Source: a virus
IMG/VR virus record: IMGVR_UViG_3300048033_001068
Span: 1-22,554 of that record
Strand: one strand, 5' to 3'
DNA: 22,554 bases
Positions 1 to 9,613 of this stretch are shown one piece after another; position 1 is the stretch's first letter, and every line of letters starts with the position of its first letter. Both the position numbers and the translations under genes were made by a program. The notes below the pieces were generated by a model. The model was not told the origin of the DNA. It did not search any database and saw only the letters and a program-made list of their open reading frames with translations.

Positions 1-959
1 TTGCGTATTAGGTTATCAATAGCTGTACAGAACAAGGGTTCATTAACTAATAATGATGGAAGCAGTCCTATTTGAACTTGTTTTATATATGATGTGCTTT
101 TTAAATAATCGTTTAGTATTTCTGTAATGTTGCACTTTTCTTTGTCTAGCTGTGCATCTTCTTTTACAAGGTTAGTAAACTCTTTAACACCGGCATAAAC
201 TTTCTGTGTATGGCGCAGCCCCTCTTCAAGCATTCTTAATGGGGCTTGTATTTTTAACTTTTTAATATCTTCTTCTGTAATTCTGCGTTTTAAAGAGCTT
301 AAACCTCTAGGCATATATGTATTTATACCACTATGCATATCGTGTCTTAGAATCTTTGCAGCATGCTCTAGGTAAGAGTTTTTTTGATTCACTAAAGCTT
401 CAGTCTCGTGTTGTAACGTTACATCTGTTGCAATCTTAAGAACTTTAGAGTATTCGCCTTTTTTATTTTTTACAGGTGTATAATGACCAAACAACCAAAT
501 TTCCTCGCCGTTTTTTGACACTCTCTCAAACTCGCCACTTATAGTTTTACCGCTTTTAAGTTTTTGCCAAAAGTTATGGTATTCTAGGCTTTCGCTATAA
601 TCCTTAGGAACTAATTTACTGTGATGTATTCCTTTAGGGTTAGAATACCCAGTAAGCTTATTAAATTTTTGGTTTGCAGACTTTATAATGCCATGCATAT
701 CCATAGTAACCACTATATTAGAGCTATTAATGGCTTTCATTTGCATATTTATGTTCTCTTCTTTTATTTTTGTTGAGTTTATAAAGCTATAAACAACATA
801 AGAAAAAGGCGGCATAAATGCAATAACACAGGCATAGCCAAATTTGGCTAAAAAGTAAGAGGGTTCGCAAAATTTAAACACAACGCATGTTTGTACTGCA
901 AAGAACACAAACATTATTGTAGCTGATACCACTAAACATGCTTTAGCAAACCGTGACAT
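1..959 (-). CDS. Membrane PAS sensor histidine kinase, phage-encoded (3' end cut by window)
   Basis: The frame is open from ATG 959-957 to the window edge, giving 319 visible codons; it has no stop in the window. TAA lies directly upstream in frame, so the start is fixed. Visible order: TM segment about residues 7-28, a very short loop, TM segment about 36-60, a short polar linker, then a PAS/PAC domain about 76-183 (FNKLTGYSN, SGEFERVSKNGEEIW, YTPVKNKKGEY, ending KIATDVT). The dimerisation/phosphoacceptor helix follows, with LRHD and H206 as probable phosphoacceptor. The last residues, AIDNLIR, match the start of the GHKL ATPase N-box, so the catalytic domain should continue outside the window. 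With almost no extracytoplasmic loop, sensing is probably by the cytoplasmic PAS or the membrane. The gene starts 3 nt after the holin-like gene (TAATAAATG junction), so it belongs to the lysis cassette. No response regulator is visible. Family is confident; role is unknown. Confidence 0.85.
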   Translation of the reverse strand, partial: MSRFAKACLVVSATIMFVFFAVQTCVVFKFCEPSYFLAKFGYACVIAFMPPFSYVVYSFINSTKIKEENINMQMKAINSSNIVVTMDMHGIIKSANQKFNKLTGYSNPKGIHHSKLVPKDYSESLEYHNFWQKLKSGKTISGEFERVSKNGEEIWLFGHYTPVKNKKGEYSKVLKIATDVTLQHETEALVNQKNSYLEHAAKILRHDMHSGINTYMPRGLSSLKRRITEEDIKKLKIQAPLRMLEEGLRHTQKVYAGVKEFTNLVKEDAQLDKEKCNITEILNDYLKSTSYIKQVQIGLLPSLLVNEPLFCTAIDNLIR

Positions 960-962
960 TTA

Positions 963-1112
963 TTATTTTTTTCTTAATAAATACCAGCGGTGCGCCGTAT
1001 ACCCTATAGATACTAATAATAACGCCATTTTAAGAAGCACTTCAACTTGCGACATGCTAATAGTCATTGCCGTTGTGTTCAATAAAACCAATCTAACGTC
1101 GTGCTCGTTCAT
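963..1112 (-). CDS. Small single-TM protein, holin-like (49 aa)
   Basis: ATG at 1112-1110, TAA at 965-963, 49 residues: too short for usual length cut-offs. The N-terminal half is polar to amphipathic (MNEHDVRLVLLNTTAMTIS). A hydrophobic stretch lies at about residues 26-46 (LLKMALLLVSIGYTAHRWYLL), followed by a basic RKK C-terminus. The start lies 1 nt after the endolysin stop and the stop lies 3 nt before the histidine kinase start, so all three are probably translated together. Position beside an endolysin without a signal peptide, small size, one membrane helix and a charged tail suggest a holin or lysis regulator that lets the M15 enzyme reach the wall. No enzymatic motif is present. It could instead be a small membrane partner of the adjacent kinase. 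That it is a real gene is likely; holin function is inferred from context. Confidence 0.7.
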   Translation of the reverse strand: MNEHDVRLVLLNTTAMTISMSQVEVLLKMALLLVSIGYTAHRWYLLRKK

Positions 1113-1113
1113 A

Positions 1114-1575
1114 TTAAATATGCTTATACTTTGTTTTACCATTTGCCTTATAGGCTTTTAAGGTTTCGCCTCGGTTCAAGCCGTCAGCAACCCAGGATAC
1201 GTGAACCCAAGCAGGTTCTTCGTCTGTCCCAAATTCCCAAATAAGCTGATCGTAGTCTAAGTGGTTTTTAATACGATTAAATATGTCGGCATTGGTTATT
1301 TTGCCATATATGTCAGCATCAAGGTCAAGTGCTTGACCATTACAATGCTGCGAGCGCTTACTCCCACCAATAGCTTCATTAAGTTCTTTGCCTCGATAGC
1401 CAGATGAAACACCAATAGGTACACCAAAGTGTAACCTAAGTGGTTCAAATATATTCTCAGCTACTTCTTTTAATGCTACTAAATGCGAAACAGTCGGTGT
1501 ATTATCAATTCCGCGACGAGACGCTGTATTTGATTTAGATACTTCCTTTACTGATAAGTGCTTTGATAATTTCAT
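1114..1575 (-). CDS. Endolysin, M15-family peptidoglycan peptidase
   Basis: A 153-residue protein typical of phage M15 (D-Ala-D-Ala carboxypeptidase/VanY-like) endolysins, which cut the peptide part of peptidoglycan. Visible motifs: N-terminal KLSKHLSVKEVSKSNTA, the SSGYRGKELNEAIGG segment (about 57-71), SQH..GQALDLD with Zn ligands H77 and D84, and IWE..(7)..WVHVSW with probable catalytic E114 and third Zn ligand H125. All expected metal ligands are present. No signal peptide is seen, so export needs a holin. I place the start at ATG 1575: it gives the classic family N-terminus and lies 1 nt after the giant protein's TAA. An upstream in-frame ATG at 1659 would add 28 charged residues overlapping the giant gene and looks spurious. 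The purine-rich run AAGAAGAAAAT before the ATG may serve as a weak ribosome site. Confidence 0.93.
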   Translation of the reverse strand: MKLSKHLSVKEVSKSNTASRRGIDNTPTVSHLVALKEVAENIFEPLRLHFGVPIGVSSGYRGKELNEAIGGSKRSQHCNGQALDLDADIYGKITNADIFNRIKNHLDYDQLIWEFGTDEEPAWVHVSWVADGLNRGETLKAYKANGKTKYKHI

Positions 1576-1576
1576 T

Positions 1577-4500
1577 TTATTTTCTTCTTTTTTTAGCTCT
1601 AGCGGCACGGTCTTCTCTTGTACCTCGTGATTTCCCTCTTGTTTCCTTAGCTTTTTCAATGCCCGCCTCTTTCCGTTCTTTTTTAGCTTCTATTTTAATA
1701 AGATCGTGCTCTTCAATTTTTGCACCAACATCCCAAGTTTTCCAACCAAGTGCTAATGCTATACGCTGCCATACTGTATTTCTAGAGTCTAATGCTTCGG
1801 AATAACCATTGATAAGGTCAACCATTCTATCCATAGGAATATTGGCCGTACCCGAAACAAGAGACCCTATTATAGAATATGCAGGGCTTAATACTAATCT
1901 GCCGTCTTGCATTATATCAAAACCTCTAGCTTTAAGTACATCTTTATTAAATTGCTCTCCTTTAATTGCTGAATATATTTTTCTTGCTTTTGAGCCTATT
2001 GGTGGAGAAATACTTAAAGCGGCCAAAAGAGTATAAGCATGATCAGCCATAAACCCTTTTTCTTTTTGTGCAAAAAACTCGGTAATTGTGTTTTTAACAG
2101 TGGCTAATGCCGCGCCGCGTACTCCGCTACCTTTAAGAATAGAATCTGTCATACTATTTATAATACGCAAATTTCTTTTATCATTCTTACGCTGTAACTT
2201 TTCTAACTGAGCTTCTGTTATTTCTGATTCGTCTTCGTCATCGAAGCCTGGTATAAGGGCGAATAAAGCACTTTGTAGTGCAGAGAATATAAAGTTTTGT
2301 ACAGCTCCGTAATAAATAATTTTAGATATATGAGTTTTAGCATCGCCACGACCATTAGCAAGGTCTTGCATTGCTTTCTTCATTAAACGGGTGTACTGCA
2401 TTGGTGTATTTTGGAATGCCAGTATAAGACGACCTAATGAACTACGTTGCTCTTGGGATACTAAATATGGGTCTGAAGATTGCTGTGCTTCGTCAGCAGT
2501 TTTGCTAAAATCTTCAAACGCCTGTTTTTCAGCTGCTTCTTTTTCCATGCCCTCTTTTAAATATGAGTTTACACGGTTGCGATAAAAAGACGCCCCACCC
2601 ATTGAAATTGCAAAACTATCCGCAATTTGTGTTGGTGTAAAACCAATCTTTAATAAATAAGCAATAACAGCTCCAGCTTTATCTTTAGCACCTTCTGCTT
2701 CATTCGCAATTTCAGCAGTATTTACATCTGTTTGTAGACCGGAGCGACGTTGTTTTAGCTTGTCGGAGTTAAATATCATTGAAAAGTCAGTCCAGTACTG
2801 CTTTTGATTTGCAAAAGCTCCAGCGGCTTTTAAAGGGTTATTATCCGACCAATTAATAAAGTTAGTAGCAGATAATGTTTGTAATACTGCAGATCTTACG
2901 TTAAAGAACATAATTGCCCCAGTAGAATTGTTTACCCAATTCATCCACTGGTTCATTTGCTTATTCATGCCTGAAGGTCTGTTGCGACCGTTTGTCATAG
3001 AATATAAGGCGTCTTCAATAGCTTCTTTATGGCGAGTACCGTAAACAGCTTCAATTTTATTTAAATTTTCACTACTAAATATTGCTTCTGAATTTTCAAT
3101 AAATTCTTGTAGGTATTTTTTTCTACCTACTTTTTCCGTCATATTATTAAGGTCTGATATAAGCGTTTGCGATAACCAGTAAGGCGTAGGATCCATCCAA
3201 GTATCTTGTCTAGATATAAGTTGCATTGCATTACCTAATTCAATAAGACCAGGGAATTGGTTGATTTCATTAATTAAAAAACTAATATCATCTTTAGACA
3301 TACCGGGAACTTCAATGCCCTGTTGCGTCCACATATATACTCTTAATGCTTGGTCATAAGTAAACTTACTATTTGTAATTTTTTTGCCCAGCATTTTAAA
3401 GTATTGCTTATTAGCTTTTGCTACCGCTATATATTCTCTACGTACTTGTTGTTTAACAGCTTCAATTTGAGCTACACCTCTTACGTAAGGTGTGATTAAA
3501 TTATCTTCAAAAAACTTTTGATCGGCTTCTCCTTGTTTCCCTTTTCCAGCAAAAGTATATGATGTTAGTCCTCTAAAGTCTTCAGCAGATGCAGGCACAA
3601 ATAATCTGTACTTACCCTTCTTTTCACCTTGCATTTTAGCTTGTACATCGGAAAATACTTTATCTGGTGCAACACCTTTATTACGGCCTACCATTTCATT
3701 AAACTCGGTGTTTAATGATTTGCTAAATTTAATATCAGAAGCTTCTAAACCCTTATCTACAAGATTAACAAAGTCGCTAGGTAATGCTTCGCCATATTTT
3801 AAATTATCTGTATTAACCTCGTAAAATCTATTTTTATAGTCTTCTTTATATTTAGCAGAACTTTCTTGTACGCTATCCCACGTTTTTGTTACAATAAAAT
3901 CAGCTAATGAACGTTCCGCCCTGGCACGATTTCTATCTACGGCTACTTGCTTGCTAGTGTTAACGTAAATTACATGGATCTCAAACCCTGCGTCTTCTAA
4001 AGCTTTCATTTTTTTAGTAGTCGCTTTATAAGATGCACCAGTTCCGTCTATCACCATACTTTCTTTAGCGGCAGTATTTTGAGCTAAGTCTTCTTCTGCT
4101 GCTTTTCTAGCTTTCCATCCTAGCTTAGCACGCAAAGAGCGTTCTTCTTTATTATAAGTTTTCTCGTCACTTGCAAGCCCAGCTTCTTTAATGTATTTTT
4201 CTAAATATGGGTCTTGATTAATTAGTCTATAACCTTTTTCTGTTAAATCTAAGCCACTTAATACACTAGACTTACCAGAACCAGGACCTCCTACCATAAA
4301 TATTGCTTTAGGGTTTTCAAGAGAAAACTTAACAGATGGTGCAATAATATTTTTAGCATCAGTAGCTTTAGACCATTTTATATTTATTTTTTTCTTGTAG
4401 GCTTCTACTTTTTCTTCGTTATTAAGATCGTCTTTTAAAGTTTGCAATGTGCCTTCTTTAATTACGGTAGAAAATATTTTTTCTTGTGCGGTATTGTCTA

Positions 4501-7500
4501 AAACACGCATGCGCTCAATACCAGACTTATTTGTTTTGCTTAGTTTATCTATTAATGCAGCAGTATTTATATCAGTTGCCCATAAAGTATTTTTATTAAA
4601 TATTTCATTTAAAGCATTAATACTACTTTCATCTAATTCACCAAATTGGTCTAATCCAAAGCTTTCATCAGCAGCTAAAGAAGCTAAGTCAAACATTAAA
4701 GCTGAGTTAGGATATACATGCTCCATATATGGTGAACCTGATATACCACTAGAAATGTATTCTAATGAGCCTAAAGCTCTAAAGCCTCTTTTATCATGCT
4801 TATTATTCATATGTTGGAGAAACCTCAAAAAGTTTTTCTCCGTCAAATCACCTTTTTTAACTGCCGTTATAAATGTTTTAGCAACAGATATTGCTAATTT
4901 CCTATTTGCAATATTTGCTGCTTGTATATCTAAAGCTAATCCAGACTCCGCAGTTTTTGTTGCGGTGCCGGAGCTCTGTTGTGCTTGAACTACTCTTCTT
5001 GCAATACCAGTTTTTGCGGTATAATATTCTATTGCACTAAGCTGTGCACTACTCATTTTAGAAGTTTGAGTTTGCAAAACACTAGACTCCGCGGCGGTTG
5101 CAATATCGTTATCACCAAATACAGCACCACCACCAAAAGCGTTTACCTCGCGTGGGTCTATAAGTAATGCTGCGTTACTAACTTCTTGGTTATACTGGGT
5201 TAGCTCGGCTATTGCATCCGCATTACCGCTCTCAGCTTTTTTCGTTAACCCAGCTAATGAACTCCATTCATTAAAAAATGTTTCATCGAAAACTGGTAAG
5301 TTAGATTCTTTTATTGAGTTTTTAACCTGTCCTTCGGCTATAAACTCTAATAACCCTTGGTCTTCTAAATATTTAAGAGTTGCAAATATTTTTTCAAAAG
5401 GTACATTAGATATATCTATAGGATTTTTTAATTCAGCCGCAGCGGTTTTTATTGCGTTAATTATTTCTGTATTAAAAGTTCCCTTATTTTCTTCGTCTTC
5501 AAGTAAGTTAATTTTTTTGTTTTCACCTAATTGTTTATGAATATTTATAGCTTGCCCAAACGCAAATGCAACATCTTTGCGTCGAGCTTCTGCTCTGGTA
5601 AAACCTTTTGAAAATTTAACATTACCTCTTTCAAAATCAAGAGCAAGTTTTTGAATATGATTATCAAGTAATTCTACTTGCAATCTTTCTTGATTAGCAT
5701 CAAACGCTTGGCGAATTGCGCTTTCAGGATTTTGCATTTCCTGATTAACAATTTCTATGGCAAGTTCTTCTCCGACTGCTTTAGCAATAGATTCTTTTTT
5801 ACCGCGAATAGGATTGCCTGATTCTTCTAAAATAAAAGATAAAAAAGTTTTATCATCTATTTTTAAAGAAGCTTTTGGTAATCTACGTACAATTTCCGCA
5901 CCTGATGTTCTTCCTGCTTTATCTGTAGTCGTAGTTTCTCTATCTATTTTTTTACCCTGCCAATCACTGGTAAATACACCATCCACTTTCTTTTGAATAG
6001 CAGCAGGAAAAGCAGTCATTAAATAAGTAGTGGTCATGTTTTCTAGAATGGCTTTTTTGTTTTTAGTTAACCATTTTCTTAATTGACCATCTTTTTTACC
6101 GCCCATTGCTTTTTTCAAATCAATGTCAACTTGTTTACCCAAAGCAAGACGCAGCTCGTTTACTAATGGTGTAACTGTTGTGTTTTTAGAAATGGGAGCG
6201 TCGATACGATTTTTTAATGTACCAACAATTCTAGGTATTTTATTTTTAATTGTTTCTATTACCTCAGCGTCAACTACTTTACTATCTAAAAGAGGCTTAT
6301 ATTGAGGTCTTTCGGCTTCCGCACGCTCTTCTATTTGTTCTGTAGTAGTAACATCAGCTGCAGCTCCTTTAAGGTCTTCTACGTCTTCCCTATTAAAGTC
6401 TTCTACAATGCCTTCACTACCTTTAAGCATGTCTTTAATACGGAAACCTATTCTCCCGTTAACATACCCATATAAAGTACCTCTACCGTCAAACTTAGCG
6501 ATATCACCAGCGGAATATACCCGCAAAATTACATCACTAATAGCTTCTTCCATATCAAACTGTAATCCTTTGTTTGATAACTTAGCCAATTGTGCTTGTA
6601 TCATACCAGGAAGTACCCTAGCTATAAGAGGCGAGTTAGGGTCAAAGAAGTCCATATTAGAGCTCACTTTATCCATTACTTGCTTAGCGCGCTCTGCAGC
6701 ACCGGAAATATCTTTACTAAGTTTAATATTAGCATTAGCTTCTTTAATAGCAGCGTCTACCGCCGGCTTTCCTTTAACTTCGCCTTTAAATATTTTTTTA
6801 GCTAAACCGCTAATTTCACCTGCGTCAAATGAAGCATTAAATGATTCAATAGCAGCAAGAACATCTTTACCGGTTTTAATTTCGGTAGGTATACTTTCAC
6901 CCTTAGTTATTTTATTCCAACGACCAAGCAGTTTACCTTGTAATGTTTTATTAGCTGTAGACTTTAAATCGAACCTACGAGATAACTCTACAACACCTGC
7001 CATTAATTCTTCTGCAACTTCTGCTTTAGAATCGCCTTCGTAAGCCTTTTCAATTTGATTAAACTTATTTTTAGCTATATCACCATATGTTTTAATCATA
7101 TAGCTTTTTAAATCTTCAGCTAAGCCTATTATATCCGCATTGCCTTCTAATAGCTTTTTAAATAAAGTAGCATGCGCAACTTCATGAGCGGCAACCGATC
7201 TATTACGTTTTGCACCTTCGTCGGTTGTTACAGCTATAGGGAAACCTTGGTTAGCTCCAGCTAAAAATCCAAATTTGTTTTTTTCTCCTCTGTAAGCTTC
7301 AATGTCTGACTTTATACTGGCTTTTTGTTTTTCTTCTATATCAGAATTATCAATAGCTTCAATAGCTAAATCAATAGCTTCCTCAAAGTTTTCGCCGTTT
7401 ATATATGTAAACTTCAAATCTTTTTCCGCCGCAGTTTTCATTTGCATCACTTTAGCCTTAGCGATGCTTTTTGATGATTCGCTATTAGCTAAGACATCGT

Positions 7501-9613
7501 CTTTGCGAAATTCTAATTTCGATATAGTTTCAGCATGCTTTACTATTAAGCTTTTCTTTTCAGCGTCAGTAAGATTTTCATTACTATTTATTTTGTCAAC
7601 AGCACCCTTAGCTCTCCAAATTTGGCTATCAATATTTAATAATATACGTTTGTCAGAACGCGAAAGCTCATCAATGCGAGCCTCTGCCGCTTTCATTGAC
7701 TTTAAATTTTCTTTTATTAAGCCATCAGCTTCCTCTTGTAATAAGTTAACCGCTTCTTGAGTATTTACATCTGATAAATCAGAATTTGCTTGCAGGTCAT
7801 TAATTCTATTTGTTATTTCAATAACTCTTGCACTTCTTTTACCCGCCGCTGCTGCTTCATTTCCTGTTGTTGCAGCAGAATAAACGCCACTAATTAAACC
7901 AGGAGCACCAAAGCCTAAACCAGACATAACAGCACCAGAAAAATAAGCTTCACCAACGCCGTCCCATAACGATACGCCTTTATCTAAAACGTATTTATCT
8001 GCAGCATTACCAATAATTTGAGACCCAAGCTCAGCTGCACCTTCACGATTTAATCCCGTGCCCCAAGTTTGAATTGCTTTAATTGTAGTAGTTGGGGATT
8101 GAGTAATAGGTGTTTTTGAAAGACTAAAAGATTTTTTCAATGCTTTTTTCGCACCTAAGAATTGGTCTAAAGCTACTCTTTCTGTAATGTATTCACCTGC
8201 TCCGTATAATATACCAGCTGTATAGAATTGGAATGGAGAATACTTTTCGCCATCTTCCATTTCAATGTCCATCGTACGGAACTTTTCGCCTGAAGCACTT
8301 GCTGCTACTAACCCTAAACCTGCCACAGGCACACTCGCTGTTAAAGCTGTATTAACTGCTTGCTCAGAAAATAAATCAAGACCAAATTCTAAAAAGTCTT
8401 CAACTGATTTTACTTTGGTAAGCTCTTGACGTTTTTCAATTTTACCTGTTATTTCTTCTGCCTGCTTAACAAGCTTGTCGCTAGCAACAGAAAGCATCCC
8501 TATATTACCCATAACACTTGGGGCATACATAGGTACATAACCATTTGTTTCTTCACCTGTAATTCTCGCTTGTATCATCTCGGGAGATAATTCTTTAGCG
8601 AAGTTTAAAAAGTTGCCCGCAAAGTTTAAAGAAGCTGAAGCTACACGACCGCCTATTACATCTAAGTTGTCGTATGATCTGCCAGTTAAATCAACAAGTT
8701 CTTCTAATGTTCCTGCCGTTTCTACTGTATTTGCTATCTCTTCATTTGTTTGTTTATACGTTTCGTAAACGTTATTATATGATTGCTCTAGGTTTTTATA
8801 CTTAGAGATTTCTTCCGGCGTAACCGAAGATGGGTCTTTTTTATATTTAGCACCTATAGTATTCAGCTCAGCTGCCGCGGTTTCTAAATAAGTTTCTTGT
8901 GCGGCTTTGTCATTGCTTAATCTGTCAATTTCGGTAAACGCTCTAGTTTTTGAAGCTTCAACTTCTTTTTCTAAAAGCTTTCTTTGTCTGCCACCTTCTG
9001 ATAAATCCGTACCATATAATAGTTGTGTACGGTATTTGTTTAGTCTGCCAAGCGGAGTATATATTTCATTATCAAAGTCCTCAAGAACCTCTTCGGCCTT
9101 AGCATTTATTAAATCAGACTTAGCAGCATTAAGATACATTGCCTTTGCTTGCTCTTTAATTTTATCCGGCGTGGCCTCTTTGCCTAGTTTTGCTTCGGCT
9201 TCTTTAATATAACCATCATAAGCATAGCGCTCAAAAAATTCCCCTGTAGGAGCCATAATGCCTGACGGCAGCTCTTGCATCATAGGTACCTGTTCAGGTA
9301 CATCTATATTGTCAATTAACGACTGAAACTCTTCAGATATGCTTATTTCACTTAACCTAGATAAAGCTTTATCTACTGGTGTAAGTTCTGGTGACTCCAA
9401 AGAAGTATCGGCCAAACTGGAATCCCCAGCGGCCGTCTTCTTTTCTGGTTCCGTTGGCGGAGTCGTACCCCCCGGAACCGTTGTCTTTCCCTCATCAGAG
9501 GTAAAACCAAATTCATTCATGTATTCAAGCAACTCCATATCAGAAGCTTCTGCTCCAATTTGCAAAGAGTCTAAAGCTATTTCGTTGCCGCTTTTATCAA
9601 AGTACTTTGGCAT
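1577..9613 (-). CDS. Giant polyvalent virion protein: HExxH peptidase, sigma-2-like and zeta-like kinase domains
   Basis: A 2678-residue protein of the polyvalent type carried by many Bacteroidota phages, probably packaged and injected with the DNA. Order: N-terminal FDKSGNEI segment (1-42); Pro/Thr/Glu linker (about 43-80); coiled-coil region (about 150-320); Gly/Ala-rich hydrophobic stretches near 420-440 and 560-585; gluzincin-like motif HEVAH at 810-814 with candidate third ligand E868 or E869; segment 997-1062 resembling sigma-70 region 2 (EEAISDVILRVY, FDGRGTLYGYVNGRI); zeta/AAA_33-like kinase about 1761-1955 with Walker A GGPGSGKS (1775-1782), NQD (D1801), DGTG (1856-1859) and R1894/R1898; long helical C-terminal domain with a hydrophobic stretch near 2433-2458 and a very basic tail ending KKRRK. 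Motifs of the form [IV]K[FLW]S occur at 963, 1332, 1745, 1761 and 1961, near domain borders, and may be linkers or cleavage sites. No DxDxD RNA polymerase motif is present. It starts 10 nt after the 377-aa gene. Confidence 0.9.
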   Translation of the reverse strand: MPKYFDKSGNEIALDSLQIGAEASDMELLEYMNEFGFTSDEGKTTVPGGTTPPTEPEKKTAAGDSSLADTSLESPELTPVDKALSRLSEISISEEFQSLIDNIDVPEQVPMMQELPSGIMAPTGEFFERYAYDGYIKEAEAKLGKEATPDKIKEQAKAMYLNAAKSDLINAKAEEVLEDFDNEIYTPLGRLNKYRTQLLYGTDLSEGGRQRKLLEKEVEASKTRAFTEIDRLSNDKAAQETYLETAAAELNTIGAKYKKDPSSVTPEEISKYKNLEQSYNNVYETYKQTNEEIANTVETAGTLEELVDLTGRSYDNLDVIGGRVASASLNFAGNFLNFAKELSPEMIQARITGEETNGYVPMYAPSVMGNIGMLSVASDKLVKQAEEITGKIEKRQELTKVKSVEDFLEFGLDLFSEQAVNTALTASVPVAGLGLVAASASGEKFRTMDIEMEDGEKYSPFQFYTAGILYGAGEYITERVALDQFLGAKKALKKSFSLSKTPITQSPTTTIKAIQTWGTGLNREGAAELGSQIIGNAADKYVLDKGVSLWDGVGEAYFSGAVMSGLGFGAPGLISGVYSAATTGNEAAAAGKRSARVIEITNRINDLQANSDLSDVNTQEAVNLLQEEADGLIKENLKSMKAAEARIDELSRSDKRILLNIDSQIWRAKGAVDKINSNENLTDAEKKSLIVKHAETISKLEFRKDDVLANSESSKSIAKAKVMQMKTAAEKDLKFTYINGENFEEAIDLAIEAIDNSDIEEKQKASIKSDIEAYRGEKNKFGFLAGANQGFPIAVTTDEGAKRNRSVAAHEVAHATLFKKLLEGNADIIGLAEDLKSYMIKTYGDIAKNKFNQIEKAYEGDSKAEVAEELMAGVVELSRRFDLKSTANKTLQGKLLGRWNKITKGESIPTEIKTGKDVLAAIESFNASFDAGEISGLAKKIFKGEVKGKPAVDAAIKEANANIKLSKDISGAAERAKQVMDKVSSNMDFFDPNSPLIARVLPGMIQAQLAKLSNKGLQFDMEEAISDVILRVYSAGDIAKFDGRGTLYGYVNGRIGFRIKDMLKGSEGIVEDFNREDVEDLKGAAADVTTTEQIEERAEAERPQYKPLLDSKVVDAEVIETIKNKIPRIVGTLKNRIDAPISKNTTVTPLVNELRLALGKQVDIDLKKAMGGKKDGQLRKWLTKNKKAILENMTTTYLMTAFPAAIQKKVDGVFTSDWQGKKIDRETTTTDKAGRTSGAEIVRRLPKASLKIDDKTFLSFILEESGNPIRGKKESIAKAVGEELAIEIVNQEMQNPESAIRQAFDANQERLQVELLDNHIQKLALDFERGNVKFSKGFTRAEARRKDVAFAFGQAINIHKQLGENKKINLLEDEENKGTFNTEIINAIKTAAAELKNPIDISNVPFEKIFATLKYLEDQGLLEFIAEGQVKNSIKESNLPVFDETFFNEWSSLAGLTKKAESGNADAIAELTQYNQEVSNAALLIDPREVNAFGGGAVFGDNDIATAAESSVLQTQTSKMSSAQLSAIEYYTAKTGIARRVVQAQQSSGTATKTAESGLALDIQAANIANRKLAISVAKTFITAVKKGDLTEKNFLRFLQHMNNKHDKRGFRALGSLEYISSGISGSPYMEHVYPNSALMFDLASLAADESFGLDQFGELDESSINALNEIFNKNTLWATDINTAALIDKLSKTNKSGIERMRVLDNTAQEKIFSTVIKEGTLQTLKDDLNNEEKVEAYKKKINIKWSKATDAKNIIAPSVKFSLENPKAIFMVGGPGSGKSSVLSGLDLTEKGYRLINQDPYLEKYIKEAGLASDEKTYNKEERSLRAKLGWKARKAAEEDLAQNTAAKESMVIDGTGASYKATTKKMKALEDAGFEIHVIYVNTSKQVAVDRNRARAERSLADFIVTKTWDSVQESSAKYKEDYKNRFYEVNTDNLKYGEALPSDFVNLVDKGLEASDIKFSKSLNTEFNEMVGRNKGVAPDKVFSDVQAKMQGEKKGKYRLFVPASAEDFRGLTSYTFAGKGKQGEADQKFFEDNLITPYVRGVAQIEAVKQQVRREYIAVAKANKQYFKMLGKKITNSKFTYDQALRVYMWTQQGIEVPGMSKDDISFLINEINQFPGLIELGNAMQLISRQDTWMDPTPYWLSQTLISDLNNMTEKVGRKKYLQEFIENSEAIFSSENLNKIEAVYGTRHKEAIEDALYSMTNGRNRPSGMNKQMNQWMNWVNNSTGAIMFFNVRSAVLQTLSATNFINWSDNNPLKAAGAFANQKQYWTDFSMIFNSDKLKQRRSGLQTDVNTAEIANEAEGAKDKAGAVIAYLLKIGFTPTQIADSFAISMGGASFYRNRVNSYLKEGMEKEAAEKQAFEDFSKTADEAQQSSDPYLVSQEQRSSLGRLILAFQNTPMQYTRLMKKAMQDLANGRGDAKTHISKIIYYGAVQNFIFSALQSALFALIPGFDDEDESEITEAQLEKLQRKNDKRNLRIINSMTDSILKGSGVRGAALATVKNTITEFFAQKEKGFMADHAYTLLAALSISPPIGSKARKIYSAIKGEQFNKDVLKARGFDIMQDGRLVLSPAYSIIGSLVSGTANIPMDRMVDLINGYSEALDSRNTVWQRIALALGWKTWDVGAKIEEHDLIKIEAKKERKEAGIEKAKETRGKSRGTREDRAARAKKRRK

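Follow-up and report, generated by a model that had tools for sequence, protein, structure and literature searches.

A candidate phosphorelay module of histidine kinase, single-domain response regulator and membrane protein TM181 in uncultured flavobacterial phages, often situated among lysis genes

The stretch of DNA analysed here in its entirety, referred to as the window, is a linear IMG/VR virus contig of 22,554 bases in which every recognisable gene resides on the minus strand. The gene series comprises portal, scaffold, major capsid, several structural genes and a relative of the crAss muzzle, and goes on with a 2678-aa protein, an M15 endolysin, a 49-aa protein with one transmembrane (TM) segment, termed SMTM, and a histidine kinase gene that is cut by the contig end. 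The features at this edge are the following:

1114..1575, minus strand: M15 peptidase endolysin (Peptidase_M15_3, E 8.7e-18; PHROG endolysin, 1.7e-33)
963..1112, minus strand: SMTM, 49-aa one-TM protein directly upstream of the kinase (hydropathy; module accessory, unsupported as a holin)
3..959, minus strand: membrane PAS histidine kinase, N-terminal 319 of about 408 residues, open to the contig end
780..935, minus strand: TM hairpin of the kinase, made up of residues 9-27 and 42-60 around a loop of ~14 residues (hydropathy)
417..716, minus strand: PAS domain of the kinase, residues 82-181 (PAS_9, E 1.5e-10; nearest solved relatives are the FAD-PAS domains of MmoS and Aer)
342..344, minus strand: codon of H206, the predicted phosphorylated histidine (ILRHDMHSGINTY), in an LRHD motif and invariant in 93/93 kinases
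3..17, minus strand: start of the GHKL N-box, DNLIR, the remainder of which lies past the contig edge

The endolysin probably starts with the ATG at 1575. SMTM begins 1 nt past the endolysin stop codon (1114-1116) and ends 3 nt ahead of the kinase ATG, in agreement with the positions and gene distances given in the initial annotation. Its description of the kinase also holds on the 319-aa open reading frame, on which both TM segments, the PAS domain, the LRHD motif with H206, the start of the N-box and a nearly absent periplasmic loop were recovered. Four contigs encode a full-length version of the window kinase with 77-90% identity and a profile search of IMG/VR yielded 60 kinase loci, so that the truncated reading frame is not due to chance.

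Judging by its genes, the window is a fragment of a crAss-like phage. The muzzle models crAss_MUZ (E 7e-13) and crAss_MUZ_C (1.6e-9) both match, pointing at Crassvirales, the portal matches the portal PHROG (1.1e-88), and the Pfam crAss capsid model gives a weak match (E 0.0028). The capsid is nearest to those of Maribacter, Flavobacterium and Cellulophaga phages (45-48%), and flavobacteria are the probable hosts. Bacteroidota as hosts also fit the scarcity of Shine-Dalgarno-like motifs, which were found in 23 of 852 genes of related full contigs (8 expected by shuffling). The giant crAss-like 2678-aa protein (1577-9613, minus strand), whose gene is located directly upstream of the endolysin gene, features an embedded kinase-like domain, i.e. 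a Zeta-toxin/AAA_33 P-loop domain at residues 1766-1913 (E 1.7e-12 and 3e-13, respectively), and also a HEVAHA motif that was spotted by eye.

The four closest contigs extend past the position at which the window ends. In these, the kinase is complete with 408-411 aa and its gene overlaps by 4 nt with the downstream gene for a response regulator of 145-146 aa, which in turn overlaps with a gene for a 181-aa protein, TM181; the gene for a 180-aa protein, f8, comes next. The window edge cuts a conserved phage operon with the arrangement (SMTM)-histidine kinase-single-domain response regulator-TM181. The complete kinase in contig L002 matches HATPase_c (E 1.9e-16), and the GHKL N-, G1- and G2-boxes, which were to be expected beyond the edge, are all present in the kinases of the relatives. 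No Pfam HisKA-type model matches the DHp region (ILRHDMHSGINTYxPRG). The regulator is a receiver domain without fused output, Response_reg (E 1.2e-7) being the sole Pfam match in the one regulator scanned, and its length reaches up to 176 aa among the members. A DNA-binding response regulator was also considered and is ruled out, as no output domain is fused to REC. The initial annotation had proposed a search for a response regulator elsewhere in the genome and had taken a host regulator into account as partner of the kinase. Such a regulator is indeed encoded directly downstream of the kinase in the relatives, and a host partner is not needed because the phage regulator adjoins the kinase just past the window edge. 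The two-component system is complete in the relatives and belongs to the phage.

Hydropathy and AlphaFold give TM181 two TM helices in addition to a coiled coil. The model (mean pLDDT 80, pTM 0.33) consists of a short N-terminal part, a helix spanning residues 36-142 that continues into the first TM, and a second TM helix. The loop of the hairpin is short and free of positive charge while both ends are charged, and the coiled coil should thus be cytoplasmic and reachable by the regulator. TM181, which with its hairpin was also considered as a putative holin or antiholin, matches no known family, and a fold search returned one uncharacterised viral relative, the remaining matches being chance helix matches. 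The f8 gene (L002:10187-10729 and 32 other loci) is often found directly after TM181; the AlphaFold model of the protein is confident (pLDDT 83.7) and a PDB search gave no significant match. A further gene, tm165 (f12; L027:7666-8163 and relatives), is situated between the genes for regulator and TM181 in one T4-like lineage; its product combines several hydrophobic segments with a coiled coil at the C-terminus.

The 49-aa gene had originally been taken as holin-like. Pfam, PHROG and NCBIfam gave no match for SMTM, to a holin family or any other, and membership in a lysis cassette is contradicted by the crAss contigs G001, G002, G003 and G012, in which SMTM adjoins the kinase and the lysis genes lie 12-21 genes from the module. 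As it stays by the kinase where lysis genes are elsewhere, we treat SMTM as an accessory of the kinase. Its place is occupied in other T4-like lineages by tm66, a protein with two TM segments and a conserved WTxFCPSK motif, and by s38. The latter is a conserved basic peptide of 38 aa (e.g. MKELEDIFNTDEFKALPFWNRVWIRLKVAFIQTISMN) that precedes tm66 or the kinase (e.g. L132:4459-4572) and occurs in 45 of 98 analysed contigs, including T4-like ones without lysis genes nearby.

Profile searches of IMG/VR furthermore returned relatives of the regulator in at least 483 stretches and relatives of TM181 in at least 527; removal of duplicates left the 98 contigs analysed here. Regulator, TM181 and SMTM are without match in 50,697 phage records, in which the kinase finds weak PAS/HATPase matches and nothing else. 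A plasmid search with the regulator gave one weak match in Halobacillus, and one scan of genome contigs for a host donor gave a 22% match in an Anaerocolumna MAG and nothing else. The module is present in crAss-like podophages as well as in T4-like myophages, the latter with NrdA/NrdB and DnaB and gp55-, gp25- and gp6-like neighbours that were named by reading the sequences; NrdA was confirmed by a 75% match to Flavobacterium phage immuto. Genes for kinase and regulator are co-directional and usually overlap. Linkage was tested independently on loci that were fetched with TM181 alone and offered enough upstream sequence. The regulator gene is located upstream of TM181 in 72/72 testable loci and the kinase gene in 60/60, with a 4-nt overlap as the commonest junction. 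Kinase, regulator and TM181 are always found together in the tested loci, and this across two unrelated flavobacterial phage groups.

No kinase that extends far enough lacks any of the residues H206, D207, N316, N320, D346, G348, G350, G375 and G377, the count covering 93 kinases of which the window kinase is the one cut short (full set in 92/92), and H206 within RHDMHSGINTY is conserved in all 93. A loss of catalytic ATPase residues beyond the edge, named by the initial annotation as an argument against its own proposal, is therefore not seen. In the regulator, D10, D11, D64, S95 and K117 are kept in 89/89 sequences. The regulator is the most conserved member of the module, with a mean pairwise identity of 0.83 (kinase, 0.62; TM181, 0.64), and is under very strong purifying selection (dN/dS 0.015-0.09, synonymous sites often being saturated); purifying selection on the kinase is strong, too. 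Going by these patterns, the genes are working parts of the phages and the module very probably constitutes a working phosphorelay. Kinases and regulators are common in hosts and cultured relatives such as immuto lack the module genes, which would suit passenger genes (morons) that were taken from a host and play a minor role in infection. The very low dN/dS with saturated synonymous sites, the invariance of the catalytic residues and a three-gene linkage that is unbroken over two phage groups speak against this explanation, which selection has already largely refuted and which we consider highly improbable.

Of 78 scored contigs, 55 have a lysis gene at most six genes from the kinase, compared to an expected share of about 16%, i.e. 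the genes lying that close to a lysis gene in ten full contigs; since the contigs are related, the 55 lysis-near ones cannot be counted as independent events. The module tree shows five changes of the lysis-near state and two of the crAss/T4-like type. The nearest lysis gene resides on the same strand as the module in 56/56 loci having one and is mostly less than 600 nt away. When position was tested contig by contig, six lysis-near contigs gave values of 0.032-0.2, and the crAss contigs G001, G002, G003 and G012 gave 0.38-0.59. While the module directly follows the endolysin in the window, it is located between HOL83, a holin-like 83-aa family without family match, and a spanin-like gene in the crAss-like contigs L221, L223, L224, L233, L238 and L243. 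Two contexts are HOL83-endolysin-Phage_holin_4_1-tm66-kinase-regulator-TM181 and HOL83-SMTM-kinase-regulator-TM181-spanin-like, where the neighbouring Phage_holin_4_1 (E 4.6e-5) is also a PHROG holin and the spanin-like label is our own reading of a lipobox combined with a C-terminal TM. Other lysis families nearby are an endolysin with PG_binding_1 and Amidase_2, the M15 endolysin, LYS14 (a relative of PHROG endolysins) and DUF5675. Two genes adjoining the module in crAss-like contigs (L003:5377-5793 and L016:4012-4437) encode proteins that resemble unimolecular spanins and match neither Pfam nor PHROG.

In the T4-like contig G006 (252 kb, with gp55) over 100 kb separate the module from the genes for amidase and HOL83. 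The lysis linkage is real and recurrent and, in view of the distant lysis genes in this contig and in G001, G002, G003 and G012, it is not obligatory. The connection between kinase and lysis genes put forward at the outset therefore holds in so far as it recurs across phage families, and the opposite case of a kinase always apart from lysis genes is contradicted by the 55 of 78 contigs; it does not hold for the five contigs just named, nor for the small gene, which follows the kinase. Lysis adjacency could be a shared late-operon position. Nine switches in endolysin type occur on the module tree, with the module itself retained, which speaks against a specific contact with the enzyme and in favour of a step at the membrane.

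The main rival to a role in lysis is that kinase and regulator act on a target in the host, e.g. a kinase or a component of gliding or the stress response, so that the place near lysis genes reflects late transcription and TM181 is an anchor or a second host-facing part. A conserved host partner would fit with the regulator being the most conserved member across unrelated phages, and in one crAss clade and one T4-like clade the module is indeed off the lysis genes. However, the phage-specific membrane protein TM181 always adjoins the regulator, pointing at a target within the module, and the position in lysis cassettes recurs far above chance. We regard such a rewiring of the host as rather unlikely.

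The invariant sensor core of the kinase is the TM hairpin with its periplasmic loop of almost nil. Fifteen of the 82 kinases in the tree are devoid of PAS, and its presence switches six times on the tree; sensing by an optional domain cannot be the core function. Where PAS is present, its closest matches are two FAD redox sensors, MmoS (E 5e-8) and Aer (E 1.1e-5). A tryptophan aligned with W70 of Aer is kept in 63 of 65 PAS domains, while other flavin contacts are not conserved, among them an Arg/His pair that we take to belong to the FAD contacts of Aer. The early suggestion that the PAS domain reads redox or energy state agrees with these closest relatives but cannot describe what all the kinases have in common. 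L039/L040/L041 and L058/L059 are close relatives that differ in the presence of the whole PAS domain, the difference between L039/L041 and L058/L059 apparently being a recent domain loss or swap. In L049, L050, L055 and L057, two kinases are encoded ahead of a single regulator, and L057 encodes a secreted coiled-coil protein, f50, between the two. The two-kinase loci and the variation in PAS suggest that one regulator serves exchangeable sensors.

The module might also keep watch on the membrane, sensing a second phage or membrane damage and bringing about lysis inhibition or superinfection exclusion, similar in effect to T4 RI/RIII. PAS-less kinases form the same kinase-regulator-TM181 unit, hinting at sensing at the membrane, and the second kinase of L057, which reads as an apparent signal peptide and a periplasmic region before TM and core, is encoded beside amidase and holin. 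A match to a PADLOC defence family is lacking, though, and we deem this explanation improbable. A known anti-phage defence system was rejected as well, PADLOC giving no match for kinase, regulator or TM181.

The timing of phage lysis is generally put down to the accumulation of holin, which antiholins can modify. Our preferred reading of the module, with a probability of about 0.5, is a phage phosphorelay that would operate at the inner membrane in the late phase and probably affect lysis timing via TM181. Late in infection, the inner-membrane kinase would sense the energy or redox state of the membrane via its TM hairpin, plus PAS where present, autophosphorylate on the predicted site H206 and pass the phosphate on to D64 of the regulator. 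The latter, having no output domain, would exert its effect by binding to the coiled coil that membrane-anchored TM181 would expose to the cytoplasm, and this docking would change a late inner-membrane step, most likely by delaying or triggering the release of the holin/endolysin/spanin system. Late action appears quite likely given that the module sits among co-directional structural or lysis genes. We lean slightly towards TM181 as the immediate target of the regulator, a contact to which the linkage of the genes points, and see the chances of lysis timing being the outcome as even. We can offer more tentatively a dedicated phosphorelay in which the kinase would monitor energy or redox state as the cell dies and the regulator would switch TM181, which would gate the holin. 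If this were true, lysis timing would be a sensed, reversible decision and not a holin-accumulation clock, and this would be widespread in marine flavophages and occur in none of the cultured phage records searched.

Bacterial two-component systems with CheY-, Spo0F- or DivK-like regulators possess the same HATPase_c kinase and receiver (DD, D64, S95, K117), encoded in one operon; the module differs in being phage-encoded, in the missing HisKA match, in the fixed third gene TM181 and in its frequent location in lysis cassettes. LytST acts on transcription via a LytTR regulator, whereas the phage regulator is without a DNA-binding domain. LytST controls the holin-like LrgAB in Gram-positive bacteria (e.g. 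PMC3507848), the same concept of two-component control of holin-like membrane proteins but in a host-encoded form. The Clostridium difficile phage phiCDHM1 carries agrDBC genes, among them one for a GHKL kinase, directly after its lysis genes. This phage is temperate, infects a Gram-positive host and has AgrB/AgrD for a peptide signal, and the authors state that there is no phage response regulator (PMC3901668). The flavophage module, in contrast, includes regulator and TM181, and we saw no AgrB/D neighbours. Uncultured pelagiphages carry a histidine kinase beside curli (T8SS) genes and are likewise uncultured marine phages, but the kinase is linked to curli and FecR/adenylate cyclase, and the part of that report considered here mentions neither lysis context nor regulator (PMC9599517).

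We found no published description of the module in a literature search whose coverage ends short of preprints and most subscription journals, in keeping with the initial view of the locus as a candidate for an undescribed system. A two-component pair with a dedicated membrane protein, often among lysis genes, may mean that viruses use phosphorylation signalling to time or shape the end of infection. A sensor-regulator pair in very many uncultured marine phages, repeatedly within lysis cassettes, would be a new control point, by which viruses of abundant marine flavobacteria could tie host death to the energy state of the cell, and the question whether phages actively decide on lysis time becomes directly testable with three small genes. 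The cultured Flavobacterium phage vB_FspM_immuto_2-6A (MW353175) has the same order of HOL83-like gene, endolysin, holin and a relative of tm346 (f9). Its genes between holin and the membrane protein f9 encode an Ala-rich protein, two spanin-like proteins and a small TM protein other than tm66, whereas its uncultured relatives carry tm66-kinase-regulator-TM181 there. With different genes at this place in a cassette of the same order, the module is an exchangeable block of the lysis region.
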